Both the position numbers and the translations under genes were made by a program. The notes beneath the pieces were generated by a model that made no database searches, was not told where the DNA came from, and saw only the letters and a program-made list of their open reading frames with translations. From positions 108,222 through 172,221 of the forward strand of contig NZ_KB890415.1 in NCBI RefSeq assembly GCF_000373105.1: 64,000 bases of DNA, read 5' to 3'. This stretch comes from Neolewinella persica DSM 23188. GTDB lineage: Bacteria; Bacteroidota; Bacteroidia; Chitinophagales; Saprospiraceae. This document shows positions 804-31,982 of this stretch, piece after piece; positions within the stretch are counted from its first letter, which is position 1; every line of letters begins with the position of its first letter.

Positions 804-1544
804 ATGTTTGATATTGAGTGGTTAAACTATAACCCCGAAACACCTTCGTTCTATGTGGTTCTGCTTACCACACTCTTCGCGTTTTTCCTCTCGTCGCTGA
901 TTGCTATTACTTATGATCTAACGACGCAAAGCATTTATCGAAGAGCACATTTCTTGCAGTCGCTTATCCTTATCGGGATTGTGGCGGCAACCGTTATGCA
1001 AGCAATTGGCGACAGCCTCGCTCGTGGTTTAGGGATTATCGGAGCCTTATCTATAATTCGTTTTCGAACGGTACTGGACGACCCAAGAAACATTACCTTC
1101 ATGTTCGCGTCGCTTGGCACTGGAATTGCCACGGGCGTACTCGGCTTTGGGGTTGCTCTTACCGGGGCCATCGTTTTCTGCCTTGGGGCAATAATCCTTA
1201 GGTTTTCGCCGATGAGTAATAACAATGAGTTAATCGGAGAGATTCGCCTGAAGGTGCCTAAACAGGATGAGCAACAAGACTCCATTGAACGTCAATTGAA
1301 AGGCCATTGCAGGGACTATGAACTAGAGCAAATCCGGTTTCTGACCGATAAACGTGTGCAAAATTATACCGAGGAAGGGATTCCCGTTATTGAAGAACAG
1401 TCACGTGACAATTTACAGGAATTCACGTATTTGATTCGTCTGAAAGACAGGGCATCTATTAATCAGCTTGCAGAAGACCTTAATAGTATTGCTGGCCTCG
1501 AAGAACTAAGGCTCAACTTCCGTAAACGCCCCACGAAACTATAG
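804..1544 (+). CDS. DUF4956 family integral membrane protein
   Basis: 246 residues. Four hydrophobic segments are visible at about 16-36, 49-68, 71-86 and 98-132, followed by a soluble charged tail of about 110 residues. The signature GALSIIRFRT (80-89) with the following DDPRNITFMFASLGTGIATG is the hallmark of DUF4956. Family members often sit beside VTC-type polyphosphate polymerases and CotH-like proteins, but their molecular role is not established. Here the gene is first in a tight operon: four bases separate its stop from the HlyD-like gene, and a TolC-like gene follows. That makes it the only inner-membrane candidate of an envelope-spanning complex (inference). No ATPase or RND pump is encoded beside it. 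Confidence 0.85.
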   Translation: MFDIEWLNYNPETPSFYVVLLTTLFAFFLSSLIAITYDLTTQSIYRRAHFLQSLILIGIVAATVMQAIGDSLARGLGIIGALSIIRFRTVLDDPRNITFMFASLGTGIATGVLGFGVALTGAIVFCLGAIILRFSPMSNNNELIGEIRLKVPKQDEQQDSIERQLKGHCRDYELEQIRFLTDKRVQNYTEEGIPVIEEQSRDNLQEFTYLIRLKDRASINQLAEDLNSIAGLEELRLNFRKRPTKL

Positions 1545-1548
1545 ACCA

Positions 1549-2553
1549 ATGCGCTTCAATTTATTTTACCCAATGGTCCTGCTGTTGGGGCTATCACTTG
1601 TGTTTCTATTCCGCCCGCCAACGGATGAGGACCTCAATTTTTTCGGCTTTGCCGAAAGCAACGAAACAACGGTCAATTACAACTACCCCGTAGTTATCGA
1701 TCAACTGCTGGTCCGCCCTGGCCAGTCCGTAAAGGAAGGTGAGGCACTCCTGAAGGTGAGCCGGAGAAAGGCTAAAGAAACACTAACGGATCAAACTTTC
1801 AGAATTGCGGAGCTTCGTGCCGAAGAAAATCTCTGGCGACAACGTAAGCAGAGTGAAATGCAGGAAACAGCGTGGAAATCGAGCGACGACCTGTCCCGAA
1901 TTAATGAGGACATTATCTCTCTCCGTAAAGAGCTCGCCTACAAAAAATCTTTAGCGGCAGGCTTGGAGTCCATCACCGTAACGGCTGCTGACTATCAACC
2001 GATCGAGGATAAAATTACCACTTTGGAGCTAGAGAAAGCCCGTAAGCAGGAAGCCGCTCAATTGAAGAGAGAAAGCCTGCGGCAGGAATTGAACCTTGGT
2101 AAAAATCCTTACGCCGAACAAATTCTTCGGCTTGAGGCCGAAATGGAGTTTGAAGAAGAACAGAAAGTTCAGCCCTTTATCGTAAAGGCACCTTCCGATG
2201 GTATCGTCGGTAACATCGACGTAAGGGAGGCGGAACACGTCCAATCCTATGCTACTTTGCTTTCCTTCTATGAGCCACATTCGAGTATTGTCCGTGGCTA
2301 TGTCCACGAAGACCAGACGGCCAAAGTCGCTTTTGGTGATCTACTCCAAGTCTATTCCCTTAAAACTGAAGGTCGGACTTACGCTGGTCAAGTTGTTGGT
2401 CTCGGCTCCCGCATCGTTGAAATTCCTAACAGGTTGAGAAAACTACCCGATTTCAAGACTTACGGTAGGGAGGTTATTGTGGAAATATCTCCCGAAAACT
2501 TATTTCTGCAAAAGGAAAAGGTTGGCATCCGTCGGGAGCCAACAGAGCGGTAA
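1549..2553 (+). CDS. HlyD-family periplasmic adaptor (membrane fusion protein)
   Basis: 334 residues. One N-terminal membrane anchor (about 5-22) is followed by a split biotinyl-lipoyl domain: first half about 46-72 (IDQLLVRPGQSVKEGEALLK), second half about 209-235 (VKAPSDGIVGNIDVREAEHV). A long coiled-coil hairpin (about 75-205, rich in E, K, L and R) separates them, and a beta-barrel-like region runs to the end. This is the standard build of HlyD/AcrA-type adaptors, which link an inner-membrane transporter to a TolC-type channel. It lies four bases after the DUF4956 gene and 30 bases before the TolC-like gene. Function is secure at family level; cargo is unknown. Confidence 0.85.
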   Translation: MRFNLFYPMVLLLGLSLVFLFRPPTDEDLNFFGFAESNETTVNYNYPVVIDQLLVRPGQSVKEGEALLKVSRRKAKETLTDQTFRIAELRAEENLWRQRKQSEMQETAWKSSDDLSRINEDIISLRKELAYKKSLAAGLESITVTAADYQPIEDKITTLELEKARKQEAAQLKRESLRQELNLGKNPYAEQILRLEAEMEFEEEQKVQPFIVKAPSDGIVGNIDVREAEHVQSYATLLSFYEPHSSIVRGYVHEDQTAKVAFGDLLQVYSLKTEGRTYAGQVVGLGSRIVEIPNRLRKLPDFKTYGREVIVEISPENLFLQKEKVGIRREPTER

Positions 2554-2583
2554 CTTCTCACCTGATTTAAATGCGGCCGATAA

Positions 2584-3831
2584 ATGATTGAGGTTATGCT
2601 TTTACCTGAAATGATCAACGACTACTACCGAAAGGTCACTTGTCACAGTATCCCATTACTGGTAGTTCTCCTTAGTGTCCCATCGCAAACAACGGCACAA
2701 CGAGTGATCTCCTCTATGGAATTCTTTGGTATTGGCATGGAGGAAGTTATGGGGACTACTGGTAGCAGACAGGGTAAAGCTCCCCCAATGCCGTGGTTCG
2801 AAGAGTACCAATTCCGAACGGAAACCAGGGACTTTGATGTTGAACGGCAGGAATACACTTTTCGGATGGCGCCAAGTACCGGGAGAAAAAGACGGGCTTT
2901 AACGGCATTGTACAACCACCAGGAATCTGCTCCTGACTTTGAGGCTTTGGAGTCGCAATGCGATGCCCTGGCAGATCGGTATGACAGCTGGCTGGAACTC
3001 TACCTGATGGATCAGGAGTTGACCATCCTCACTAAGTTGAGGATCGTCCTTGACGATCGGCAAACAGTTCTAAATCGTCAGGCTGGTAGCCTCGACTTTG
3101 ATTGGTCCAAGCTGGTTAAGTTACGGCAAGACGTTACCGACCTCGACCTGCGATTCTCCCGTTTGAACACTGAAGTAGCCCGGATCAATAATAGTATGGG
3201 CCTGGTGGAACCTTCCTTTTCTTTTACTGGCTTCATCACTTTATCCCAAATTGGGGCCAGCTTCCCAGGGGCTTTCAAGTTAACTAATGATCCAAAATCA
3301 GACTATGAGCTGGAGACCGTTGCCCGTGAACTGGAATTGGAAAAAGCGGAGCAAAAGCAGTACTTTGATTTCGCCCAGGTGAAATACCAGGGGCCTCATT
3401 CCGACTTACCCCGGGAGCGCCTTTCTATCGGCCTAGCATTTCAGCTACCTAACTCTGGAGGAAAATTAGTCAAAATACGAGAGTTGGAATTAGAAGAAGA
3501 GACCTTGCGAAGGGAACAAGCAGCAGCTGTAGAAGCTGAAAAAGTTGGATACGAAGCAGATATGGCCGCTTGGCTGATTGATTATGGACACTTCAATTTT
3601 ATGATCTCTGCGCATCTGAGAGAAAAGGAAGAATTGATACGAATAGGTAGCCAGCTAAAAAAGAAAGAAGGGTTTAGCCCGCTACCTTTACTAGAGATCG
3701 AAGAAAGGGCCTTAAGAAATGAACTCAGGCTGCTTGATCTATCTGCCAGCCTTTACCAAAAATACCTTAAAATCAGGGAAGGGGCCGGGGAGCTCTGCTC
3801 AGCAGTTAATGGGGAGTTGCTGCTCCAATAA
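2584..3831 (+). CDS. TolC-like outer-membrane efflux protein
   Basis: 415 residues from the first ATG; an alternative ATG at 2611 gives a cleaner signal peptide (hydrophobic run LLVVLLSVPSQTTAQ). The rest is long amphipathic helices with two similar halves. The second half has the typical TolC-family pattern: PRERLSIGLAFQLP, a small-residue break, then a helix rich in LELEEE. No ABC or RND gene is next to it. It completes the set DUF4956, HlyD adaptor, TolC and probably forms the outer-membrane exit duct. The sequence is divergent, so the TolC assignment rests on helix pattern and gene order. Confidence 0.68.
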   Translation: MIEVMLLPEMINDYYRKVTCHSIPLLVVLLSVPSQTTAQRVISSMEFFGIGMEEVMGTTGSRQGKAPPMPWFEEYQFRTETRDFDVERQEYTFRMAPSTGRKRRALTALYNHQESAPDFEALESQCDALADRYDSWLELYLMDQELTILTKLRIVLDDRQTVLNRQAGSLDFDWSKLVKLRQDVTDLDLRFSRLNTEVARINNSMGLVEPSFSFTGFITLSQIGASFPGAFKLTNDPKSDYELETVARELELEKAEQKQYFDFAQVKYQGPHSDLPRERLSIGLAFQLPNSGGKLVKIRELELEEETLRREQAAAVEAEKVGYEADMAAWLIDYGHFNFMISAHLREKEELIRIGSQLKKKEGFSPLPLLEIEERALRNELRLLDLSASLYQKYLKIREGAGELCSAVNGELLLQ

Positions 3832-21310: not shown

Positions 21311-22294
21311 CTATCTCAATAGCCGCATCAACTTCTTTTCATTCGCCAGCAGATCGTAAAAATCATCCATCCGTTTTAACAGCCGCTTCCTGTTGCGATT
21401 GTCGAGGCCCGGATAGGTCGCAATGAAATTAGTGGCTACTTCCTGGCGGGATTGAAAGTGCGTGCAAGCTGCCGTTAATTCTTCCGGGCTGACATCCTTA
21501 CCCAGCCATTTGGGTACTAAAACGGAAGCTATATCCAGTTCCTCCCGAGGAACAGCATAATTTGCACCGACAAAGCCAGAGTAGTCGAAGTCATAAGGAA
21601 TTGGGATCAGCTTGAGGGCTCCCTTTTTAGCGATAAATTCTACATTGTGCAGGTTGAAAACGTGCCAGTCGGTATTAAGAATCAGGTAGTTGAAAAGGCA
21701 CATGTTAACGTAGGCAGAACGGTTGATGCCATCAGTGCTGGCGCGCCTCATATTGGGAATTTTACCTTCATAGCGTTCCGATAACTGTTCTTCGTCCTCT
21801 ACCAGAAAAGCCCTGAGCACCTGGTCAGCATCCTGGTTAGTAGTCACCTGCAATGGAATAACCCGGTGATAGTTTTCGCTGTAGATAGCGTGCAATTCGT
21901 AGACCATTTGCTCCCGAATAGAATAGCCTTCTCCGACGCTTCCCCTGGAGCATTGTATTACAAGTTTCAGGTCGTTCAGGTCACTGAACCCGGCAGCTCG
22001 TAATGGAGACTTTTTGAGCTTTATTTTGAGGGAAGGGTTTTGGCATACCTCAAGCCGAACATGCCCCCTGCTTCGAACCCGGCCAGGAAACGTCAGCGTA
22101 TCCCCAAAGGTATAGACCGTCATGTTAAGCGGTTGGTACTGCTTTTTACGCTTATTACGCAGCAGGTTTTTCCAATCGGTATCCAGCTCAACGCTTACGA
22201 CGTCGCCCTGCTGATGTAAGCTGTCGAATAGAGAGGCCTGGGCCACCAGATGAATAGAAAAGAAGAGTAGAATGCAAGTAAGGGAGGATTTCAT
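21311..22294 (-). CDS. CotH-like secreted protein
   Basis: 327 residues with a signal peptide (to about 19). Weak but ordered similarity to the CotH kinase-like family is seen: an early strand with RVRSRGHVRLEVCQNPSLKI, then YSIREQMVYELHAIYSE, then NTDWHVFNLHNVEFI, and LIPIPYDFDYSG, which resembles the metal-binding DxDxxxG motif of CotH. CotH proteins phosphorylate partner proteins in spore coats, but many bacterial relatives are uncharacterised. DUF4956 genes are often linked to CotH genes; here the two are about 20 kb apart. The family call is tentative. Confidence 0.55.
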   Translation of the reverse strand: MKSSLTCILLFFSIHLVAQASLFDSLHQQGDVVSVELDTDWKNLLRNKRKKQYQPLNMTVYTFGDTLTFPGRVRSRGHVRLEVCQNPSLKIKLKKSPLRAAGFSDLNDLKLVIQCSRGSVGEGYSIREQMVYELHAIYSENYHRVIPLQVTTNQDADQVLRAFLVEDEEQLSERYEGKIPNMRRASTDGINRSAYVNMCLFNYLILNTDWHVFNLHNVEFIAKKGALKLIPIPYDFDYSGFVGANYAVPREELDIASVLVPKWLGKDVSPEELTAACTHFQSRQEVATNFIATYPGLDNRNRKRLLKRMDDFYDLLANEKKLMRLLR

Positions 22295-31590: not shown

Positions 31591-31639
31591 CCATTTTGCT
31601 ACTCCATCCTTTCCTCCGAAAGATAAAATAAGTATGGCG

Positions 31640-31832
31640 CTGCGGGCAGGTCTTCTGGCTGGTCCATGTTACTGATTGTAGGTCGCAAGTACCGCCTTCC
31701 CAAGCAGCAGCTCAGTGGCAAATGGTACCGAAACGGTCATGGTTTTACAGCTACGGGGATAGCTCCGGATTTACACCGGATTCCCTTTTAAAACGGGCAA
31801 AAACTATTGCCCGTTACCTTTAGCAACGCAAA
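31640..31832 (-). ncRNA. Cobalamin riboswitch
   Basis: On the minus strand the hallmarks appear in order: a 5-prime stem, GGGAATCCGGTGTAAATCCG then GAGCTATCCCCGTAGCTGTAA (the conserved peptidyl-core and the L5/L6 region), GCCACTG (B12 box, in ATTTGCCACTGAGC), GGGAAGGCGG, and the closing AGCCAGAAGACCTGCC. That is the adenosylcobalamin aptamer in full. It stands about 250 bases before the btuB ATG at 31392 and would repress btuB when cobalamin is plentiful. Whether it acts on termination or on translation cannot be told by eye, because the platform region holds repeat sequence. Confidence 0.95.
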
Positions 31833-31982
31833 CATAGCACTTTTGTCGAGTAGGGGGAGTCTTTTGTCCACCATTCTAACGCCGATAAAAAGTCCTTACT
31901 ATATTCGTTGCATTAACCATTGGTTCAATATCGGATTTGAAACTGGTTTTGACCAACCATATTCACATTAAAATACCCCATT

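Follow-up and report, generated by a model that had tools for sequence, protein, structure and literature searches.

Which inner-membrane partner is served by an HlyD-type adaptor and a TolC-type channel that are encoded directly behind a DUF4956 membrane protein? To our knowledge, the pump of the described tripartite systems is of the ABC, RND or MFS kind, and the gene set analysed here places the unstudied DUF4956 where those systems keep it. The set was read in Neolewinella persica DSM 23188 (assembly GCF_000373105.1, contig NZ_KB890415.1) within a stretch of 64,000 nt (forward strand, positions 108,222-172,221), referred to below as the window. An initial annotation had proposed a possible new tripartite envelope system with DUF4956 as its pump or anchor. 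This interpretation was supported in part: the adjacency proved widespread and a polyphosphate polymerase/CotH link was found in relatives, whereas the pump role of DUF4956 and the movement of a polymer are hypotheses. The count of four helices in DUF4956 did not stand. Literature searches returned no description of a DUF4956-HlyD-TolC set.

Gene layout

The three genes are packed as had been described, with gaps of 4 bases (1545-1548) and 30 bases (2554-2583) in the ORF map of the window, and their identities were borne out by Pfam searches and by AF2 modelling with Foldseek. The features are collected in Table 1.

Table 1. Features of the triad, with positions counted in the window
Feature	Position	Strand	Length	Evidence
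DUF4956 membrane protein (ORF1)	804..1544	+	246 aa	Pfam PF16316, E 6.5e-16; AF2 model; 58 aligned rows
Codons for DUF4956 residues 86-95 (R-F-R-T...P-R)	1059..1088	+		Alignment; low-confidence part of model
DUF4956 residues 141-246, a soluble C-terminal tail of ACT-like (ferredoxin-like) fold	1224..1541	+		AF2 model; structure matches
HlyD-type periplasmic adaptor (ORF2)	1549..2553	+	334 aa	Pfam HlyD_3, HlyD_D23; PDB profile matches; hydropathy; hairpin stretch
TolC-type outer membrane factor (ORF3)	2584..3831	+	415 aa	AF2 pLDDT 90.5; Foldseek TolC/OprM/CusC; OEP in 12/50 aligned relatives

The DUF4956 protein

ORF1 matched PF16316 with 59 bits (curated cut-off 30.6), and all 58 aligned triad-type rows matched the same profile at E<=1. 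These triad-type proteins form a distinct group of DUF4956 proteins with higher similarity. The AF2 model (mean pLDDT 75.8) contains five membrane helices (residues 16-40, 48-68, 72-90, 94-111 and 115-134) rather than four, followed by the tail from about residue 141; its low-confidence stretch covers residues 71-90 (pLDDT 57-64). Foldseek and VIA-align matches of the model were taken up by the tail, none informing the fold of the membrane part. Among them are ACT domains and 2lqj, the C-terminal domain of MgtC and one of the many ferredoxin-like domains to which this fold is common. PDB sequence searches with DUF4956 gave nothing useful. Residues R86, R88, P94 and R95 are invariant in 58/58 aligned triad-type rows, and the RFR core is also present in 18 of 22 DUF4956 proteins from other settings (one per locus).

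The MgtC/SapB profile (PF02308) weakly matched 37 of the 58 DUF4956 rows at E<=1 (best E 2e-4), and the MgtC model picked up two DUF4956 genes, both under the family cut-off. A PF02308 search of the window's genome gave no match, and by profile cut-off DUF4956 falls outside the family. Shallow hhalign comparisons of DUF4956 with MgtC, against five and then one local MgtC-type proteins, gave probabilities of 1 and 13.5. DUF4956 looks like a remote relative of MgtC: the profiles of the two are weakly similar over the membrane part, where DUF4956 has conserved arginines, and the ACT-like tail may be a further common feature. It differs from MgtC/SapB in its sub-threshold score and in its fixed neighbours, HlyD and TolC.

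The adaptor and the channel

ORF2 matched HlyD_3 (3.2e-8) and HlyD_D23 (5.1e-8). A single-sequence search of the PDB gave nothing useful and a profile was needed; the HlyD profile found EmrA, HlyD and MacA. Hydropathy and the hairpin stretch indicate an N-terminal hydrophobic anchor and lipoyl halves separated by roughly 135 residues. The adaptor has a hydrophobic segment of its own, and therefore DUF4956, initially taken as the only inner-membrane protein of the set, is not strictly so. Tripartite adaptors carry an RLS/RLT motif at the tip of their hairpin (PMC3391258); it was found in its strict form (RxxxLxxxxxxS) in one of 40 HlyD rows, the window's HlyD being without it, and in a form loosened to R/K and S/T in 11 of the 40.

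ORF3 had no Pfam match and PDB sequence searches with it gave nothing useful, while some of its aligned relatives match OEP (Table 1). Foldseek returned 38 matches to its AF2 model at E<=0.001, all of them TolC-type outer membrane factors by title apart from 5azo, 5azp and 5azs, the titles of which name only a P. aeruginosa membrane protein. With its HlyD/EmrA/MacA-like adaptor and TolC-fold channel, the triad resembles HlyBD-TolC, EmrAB-TolC and MacAB-TolC. Unlike type I secretion and MDR tripartite systems, no ABC, RND or MFS partner was seen in its operon, where DUF4956 takes that place, and the canonical RLS tip motif is missing from 39 of the 40 HlyD rows.

Conservation of the gene order

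Adjacency was judged in 80 loci with sufficient room, comprising the window and its relatives (DUF4956 identity 37-88%). HlyD follows DUF4956 in 79 of these, of which 78 were scored by script and one, L101, has an overlapping ORF call; the exception, L056, has DUF4956 without HlyD. TolC is next in order in 75 of 75 loci with room by script, and likewise in L101. Chance or local adjacency was rejected on this retention of order. Uniqueness to this genome, which the initial annotation had named as refuting its proposal, was not borne out: the arrangement was found in Bacteroidota, Fibrobacterota, Desulfobacterota and one Planctomycetota MAG.

The triad TolC was present in 18 of 60 relatives, 17 of which hold a triad-type DUF4956; the 18th (G018) shows TolC only, at a contig edge. 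The DUF4956 profile was matched in 108 of 167 genomes of Fibrobacterota, and the 20 loci read there carry HlyD (20/20), TolC (19/20) and VTC (20/20). Desulfobacterota gave three strong matches among 297 genomes, each with DUF4956, HlyD, TolC, VTC and CotH together. In the Planctomycetota MAG, two contig ends carry the genes, one of them DUF4956-HlyD and the other TolC-VTC-CotH-CotH. Judged by gene order and homology, DUF4956-HlyD-TolC is a conserved gene set in which the nature of HlyD and TolC is established by comparison.

Search for a partner pump

No ABC, RND or MFS pump was seen in the operon, either in the ORF map of the window or in the Pfam matches of the neighbours, nor was an ABC ATPase. 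In relatives, pump families are absent from the 25 commonest of the 104 families among 84 same-strand neighbours, and 11 of 240 neighbours have at least four hydrophobic segments, only one of these being on the same strand. A pump gene joining the operon in relatives, which would have spoken against the proposal, did not recur as a family, but four of the 20 Fibrobacterota loci have a separate OEP-HlyD run downstream, in one of which Pfam shows an ABC-2 permease. This run has its own adaptor and channel, and a recurrent pump joining the operon was rejected.

Polyphosphate polymerase, CotH and LTD partners

A VTC-domain polyphosphate-polymerase gene accompanies all of the Fibrobacterota loci read and three of four Desulfobacterota triads; outside Bacteroidota, the triad and VTC are accompanied by CotH kinases and lamin-tail-domain (LTD) proteins. 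The initial suggestion of a polyphosphate polymerase or CotH gene nearby thus holds for relatives, but neither VTC nor CotH adjoins the window triad. The VTCs of triad operons keep 14 polymerase residues in 24/24 (R26, E28, K30, R92, R94, E107, K109, K118, R173, R185, D189, E227, K229 and K255, numbered as in the Fibrobacterota locus L108). R92/R94 and E227 were mapped to Vtc4 R264/R266 and E426 by pattern, not structure, using a portion of PMC9911596.

A VTC gene elsewhere in the window's genome was sought genome-wide and not found, and 20 other genomes of the genus (21 searched) likewise gave no VTC match. A search of 14 Bacteroidota triad genomes left 10 without a VTC match, as was the genome of a Desulfobacterales triad (L111), and the Bacteroidota triad stretches examined have none. 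Of three Bacteroidota VTC loci read, two have their own second DUF4956 and one (L302) has no DUF4956.

CotH is the commonest of the other neighbour clusters (22 loci; the next has 8). It occurs in 22 of 81 locus stretches, where about 1 would be expected at the density of the window's genome (6 CotH in 7.08 Mb, all away from the triad), some relatives reaching 22 CotH per genome. Within the genus, genomes with the triad have 3-8 CotH genes and those without it 1-4 (Mann-Whitney p 2.8e-4); after correction for relatedness (rpoB tree) the association was not significant (four supported pairs, p 0.25-0.5). As far as gene neighbourhoods tell, the triad is linked to CotH, VTC and LTD.

Discussion

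We favour, with a probability of about 0.4, a reading in which the triad is a conduit dedicated to carrying phosphate-rich material from inside the cell to its surface, where it serves CotH and LTD proteins; the transport, its direction, its substrate and the coupling to CotH are what we infer. DUF4956 in the inner membrane, HlyD in the periplasm and TolC in the outer membrane would form one envelope-spanning conduit, with DUF4956 occupying the slot of an ABC, RND or MFS pump and passing the material outward. Where VTC is in the operon, the material would most likely be polyphosphate, made at the cytosolic face and extruded during synthesis as in the yeast VTC complex. At the surface it would supply CotH kinases and LTD proteins, as phosphoryl donor or as polymer for attachment. 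The window's genus, which gave no VTC match, would need a donor from another source, for example PPK or a nucleotide. Such a route would let two-membraned bacteria bring phosphate polymers or phosphoryl donors to their surface and would give DUF4956 a testable role; it would also raise the question of the phosphate supply of CotH kinases outside the cell. Counted against the conduit are the missing VTC matches in the genus, in most of the Bacteroidota triad genomes and in L111, the Bacteroidota VTC loci with a second DUF4956 or none, the DUF4956 cassettes without HlyD and TolC, the missing canonical tip motif, the weak MgtC link, the arginine segment falling where confidence in the model is low, the CotH association that loses significance after correction, and L056; nor was an energy source recognised. 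A bolder form is unlikely: a fourth kind of tripartite exporter, in which DUF4956 forms an MgtC-like channel and VTC, bound to it, drives polyphosphate or a like phosphoryl carrier directly from the cytosol through HlyD and TolC to CotH kinases that phosphorylate surface proteins.

It is rather unlikely that DUF4956 is instead an MgtC-like regulator or anchor whose ACT-like tail senses a ligand, with HlyD and TolC serving an ABC, RND or MFS pump encoded elsewhere. The remote MgtC similarity, the tail and the additional HlyD-bearing exporter run downstream in Fibrobacterota would suit such a role, but that run owns its OEP and HlyD and is seen in only four of 20 loci, the same-strand neighbours offer no pump among their commonest families and a single protein rich in hydrophobic segments, and the triad TolC co-occurs with DUF4956 in 17 of 18 genomes. 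Export of CotH/LTD or other surface proteins themselves through HlyD-TolC, in the style of type I secretion, would fit the finding that no partners are more common than the CotH and LTD genes. We consider it improbable, given an operon without a visible ABC ATPase. Moreover, T9SS sorting domains occur in six of seven Bacteroidota CotH/LTD proteins scanned and in three of five CotH proteins of the window's genome (one of them under cut-off), and the Fibrobacterota LTD proteins resemble lipoproteins with signal peptides (by eye); these proteins therefore have other export routes.

Quite improbable is the opposite handling, in which a phosphopolymer at the surface is imported by the triad, or anchored or organised by it, for example in a force-bearing holdfast or adhesion structure. 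Beside DUF4956 genes lie those for a CYTH protein with a signal-like start, a metallophosphatase-like protein (by eye) and a propeller that is weakly phytase/esterase-like, all of which would fit, as would the frequency of DUF4956 in Fibrobacterota and the Gram-positive Pel setting described below. Against this, HlyD-TolC are export parts in all cases known to us, and neither an import receptor nor a motor was seen.

The conduit reading also bears comparison with the eukaryotic VTC complex. The yeast channel has a basic-residue lining and couples synthesis to translocation, according to a portion of PMC9911596; the relatives' operons share the VTC/TTM polymerase domain with its R.R and E.K residues, and DUF4956 likewise has a membrane part with conserved basic residues. 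The triad differs in its outer-membrane route, and no VTC gene was found in the window's genome. Monoderm neighbourhoods were taken from portions of PMC7112168 and PMC2879425; in the former, Gram-positive DUF4956, CotH and polyphosphate polymerase genes adjoin Pel polysaccharide genes. This accessory set shares DUF4956 and CotH with the triad, and VTC with its non-Bacteroidota relatives only. Other DUF4956 cassettes of two-membraned bacteria are without HlyD and TolC, and for that reason a universal need of DUF4956 for HlyD-TolC in such bacteria was rejected. The DUF4956-CotH-VTC cassettes of Bacteroidota and Desulfobacterota contain VTC, absent from the Bacteroidota triad stretches, and a DUF4956 outside the triad group; relative to these cassettes and to the Pel accessory set, the triad adds HlyD and TolC.

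Identity of the three genes

The three closely packed ORFs described in the initial annotation were confirmed on the window DNA in both order and spacing (gaps of 4 and 30 bases). In Pfam searches the first matched DUF4956 (E = 6.5e-16) and the second matched HlyD_3 (3e-8) and HlyD_D23 (5e-8). The closest species-named relative of the window DUF4956 is from N. agarilytica (87% identity), and the profile of the triad HlyD matched the structures of EmrA, HlyD and MacA. The third ORF gave no Pfam match. It is a TolC-type protein, as judged from OEP (the Pfam TolC-type family) matches in 12 of 50 scanned rows (aligned relatives), from an AlphaFold2 model (pLDDT 90.5) with long helices and four strands, and from 38 Foldseek matches to this model (E<=0.001), which were TolC, OprM, CusC and kin except for entries titled merely P. 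aeruginosa membrane protein. DUF4956 had been described as four helices with a soluble tail; its model (mean pLDDT 75.8) retained the tail, which is ACT-like, and gave five helices.

Conservation of the gene order

Loci were retrieved in a single scan with the window DUF4956 protein. The best 80 of 131 matches in named genome records were kept, a choice by similarity that favours the triad-type DUF4956 group; with the window this gave 81 loci, of which 80 allow the downstream HlyD to be judged. The adjacency is not peculiar to the window genome, as had been considered possible, since HlyD comes next in 79 of the 80 loci, from several phyla (78 by script, and L101, where the ORF call overlapped). 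TolC follows in 75/75 loci with room and in L101. The loci were retrieved via DUF4956 alone, and HlyD and TolC were therefore not selected for. The triad TolC profile matched 18 of 60 relatives' genomes, 17 of which also contain a triad-type DUF4956; in the 18th (G018) TolC lies at a contig edge.

In the accessible parts of the literature on DUF4956, CotH (surface kinase), VTC (polyphosphate-polymerase domain) and polyphosphate export, mostly non-subscription papers, no DUF4956-HlyD-TolC set is described; this includes PMC7112168, PMC10657179, PMC2879425, PMC10434189, PMC9911596 and PMC3391258.

Triads outside Bacteroidota

The DUF4956 profile matched 6 of 297 genomes in a Desulfobacterota sample. 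The three strong matches have HlyD, TolC, VTC and CotH in one run (with DUF4956 in last place in L303), and in the three weak ones DUF4956 stands with CotH and VTC but HlyD and TolC are missing. A fourth Desulfobacterota triad, L111, is on a contig that stops just past TolC, and no VTC was matched in the MAG it comes from; VTC joins 3/4 of these triads. In Fibrobacterota, to which L108 belongs, 108 of 167 genomes were matched. Twenty loci were read (ten hand-picked and ten from the 12 places with the highest scores, of which two were in the locus set already), with HlyD in 20/20 and TolC in 19/20; in L356 TolC went unrecognised and a single long ORF extends across the positions of both TolC and VTC. 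The polyphosphate polymerase and CotH genes that the initial annotation had proposed to look for near the triad in relatives are present: VTC in 20/20 of these Fibrobacterota loci and CotH in 22 of the 81 stretches. All six scanned genes immediately 3' of VTC in the Fibrobacterota loci encode lamin-tail domain (LTD) proteins. In a Planctomycetota MAG, DUF4956-HlyD ends one contig and TolC-VTC-CotH-CotH lies at the end of another, which is read as one split operon.

A separate OEP-HlyD run lies downstream of the LTD gene in 4/20 Fibrobacterota loci (L348, L352, L353 and L354); by Pfam, the OEP and HlyD of L352 were confirmed and L348 has an ABC-2 permease.

DUF4956 in other settings

Saprospiria and their kin carry a second kind of DUF4956, which accompanies VTC as DUF4956-CotH-VTC or VTC-DUF4956. 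The HlyD and OEP of the L143 operon are unrecognised by the triad profiles, which suggests that these parts were brought together separately there. The DUF2490 proteins listed in the table might be the outer-membrane exit of the VTC-DUF4956 cassettes; BT3498-99 are given as DUF4956 and DUF2490 in the accessible part of PMC10434189. Gram-positive Pel clusters combine DUF4956, CotH and polyphosphate polymerase (PMC7112168, accessible part). In Clostridium perfringens, a locus that carries CotH, VTC and a 226-aa membrane protein with a tubulin/FtsZ annotation (PMC2879425, accessible part) may be the same VTC/DUF4956/CotH set.

Features in the window and in DUF4956 loci of relatives (L-handles)
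Location	Strand	Feature	Remarks
Window 21311-22294	-	327-aa ORF, possibly a diverged CotH by sequence	45.5 bits (weak) to CotH profile built here; no Pfam match
Window 31628-31836	-	Cobalamin riboswitch	105.5 bits
L056:6001-6738		Triad-type DUF4956	No HlyD within 6 kb downstream; sole such case of 80
L108:7747-8703		Stand-alone propeller-like gene, lying between HlyD and TolC	Weak phytase/esterase-like similarity, below cut-off
L110:6700-8754		Propeller-like region sharing an ORF with HlyD	By eye
L143:5764-9683		Operon HlyD-VTC-DUF4956-OEP	
L147:10499-11401	-	CYTH-domain protein between DUF4956 and CotH-VTC	Signal-peptide-like start (by eye)
L151:4175-4864		DUF2490 barrel-like protein	Directly after VTC-DUF4956
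L161:8752-9408		DUF2490 barrel-like protein	Directly after VTC-DUF4956
L039:5316-5909	As triad	Pycsar effector domain (PycTM) gene	Directly upstream of triad; locus assigned from neighbour cluster c16
L104:4004-5251	As triad	PycTM gene	As for L039
L105:4645-5889	As triad	PycTM gene	As for L039

Possible role of DUF4956

DUF4956 appears remotely MgtC-like in sequence. PF02308 (MgtC/SapB) matched 37 of 58 DUF4956 rows at E<=1 (best 2e-4), every other foreign family matching at most four, and a genome search with the MgtC model picked up two DUF4956 genes below its cut-off. Three arginines of the membrane part (R86, R88 and R95), in a low-confidence region of the model, are invariant across the 58 rows, and the RFR core is kept in 18/22 DUF4956 proteins from non-triad settings. 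The polymerase residues compared are retained in all 24 VTC proteins of triad operons. Basic residues line the membrane channel of yeast VTC, where synthesis is coupled to translocation (PMC9911596, accessible part). From the MgtC likeness, the arginines, the intact VTC residues and the yeast coupling, we infer that DUF4956 would take a phosphate polymer or other phosphoryl carrier and pass this cargo to HlyD-TolC. Against such a hand-over, VTC was unmatched in 21 genus genomes and in 10 of the 14 Bacteroidota triad genomes searched (L087 being outside the search), no energy source is known for the triad, and the canonical TolC-docking motif is absent from 39/40 HlyD rows.

CotH and LTD partners

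CotH genes per genome were compared in the 20 genus genomes with rpoB (G009, 55% complete and without rpoB, was excluded). Counts were higher with the triad (4, 3, 5, 6, 6, 8, 6, 7, 5) than without it (2, 2, 2, 1, 2, 1, 1, 3, 4, 2, 2; Mann-Whitney p 2.8e-4). G018 was scored triad-positive from the TolC at its contig edge, and fragments account for two of its 5 CotH matches; G010 was scored as 6 because two of its 7 matches are pieces of a single gene, which sits directly after its triad. In a tree of 74 of the 76 matches (the two G010 pieces omitted), two clades, picked after the tree was seen, are almost limited to triad genomes (8/10 versus 1/11 and 7/10 versus 1/11), with G007 as the exception. 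The link between CotH numbers or clades and the triad is suggestive only, since the relatedness-corrected test had four supported pairs (p 0.25-0.5).

Scans of ten proteins of the neighbour CotH cluster gave CotH in all ten, LTD in eight and the T9SS sorting domain in seven (below cut-off in one of them). The window genome has six CotH genes, none adjoining the triad; among the five scanned, LTD is present in three and the T9SS sorting domain in three, in one case below cut-off.
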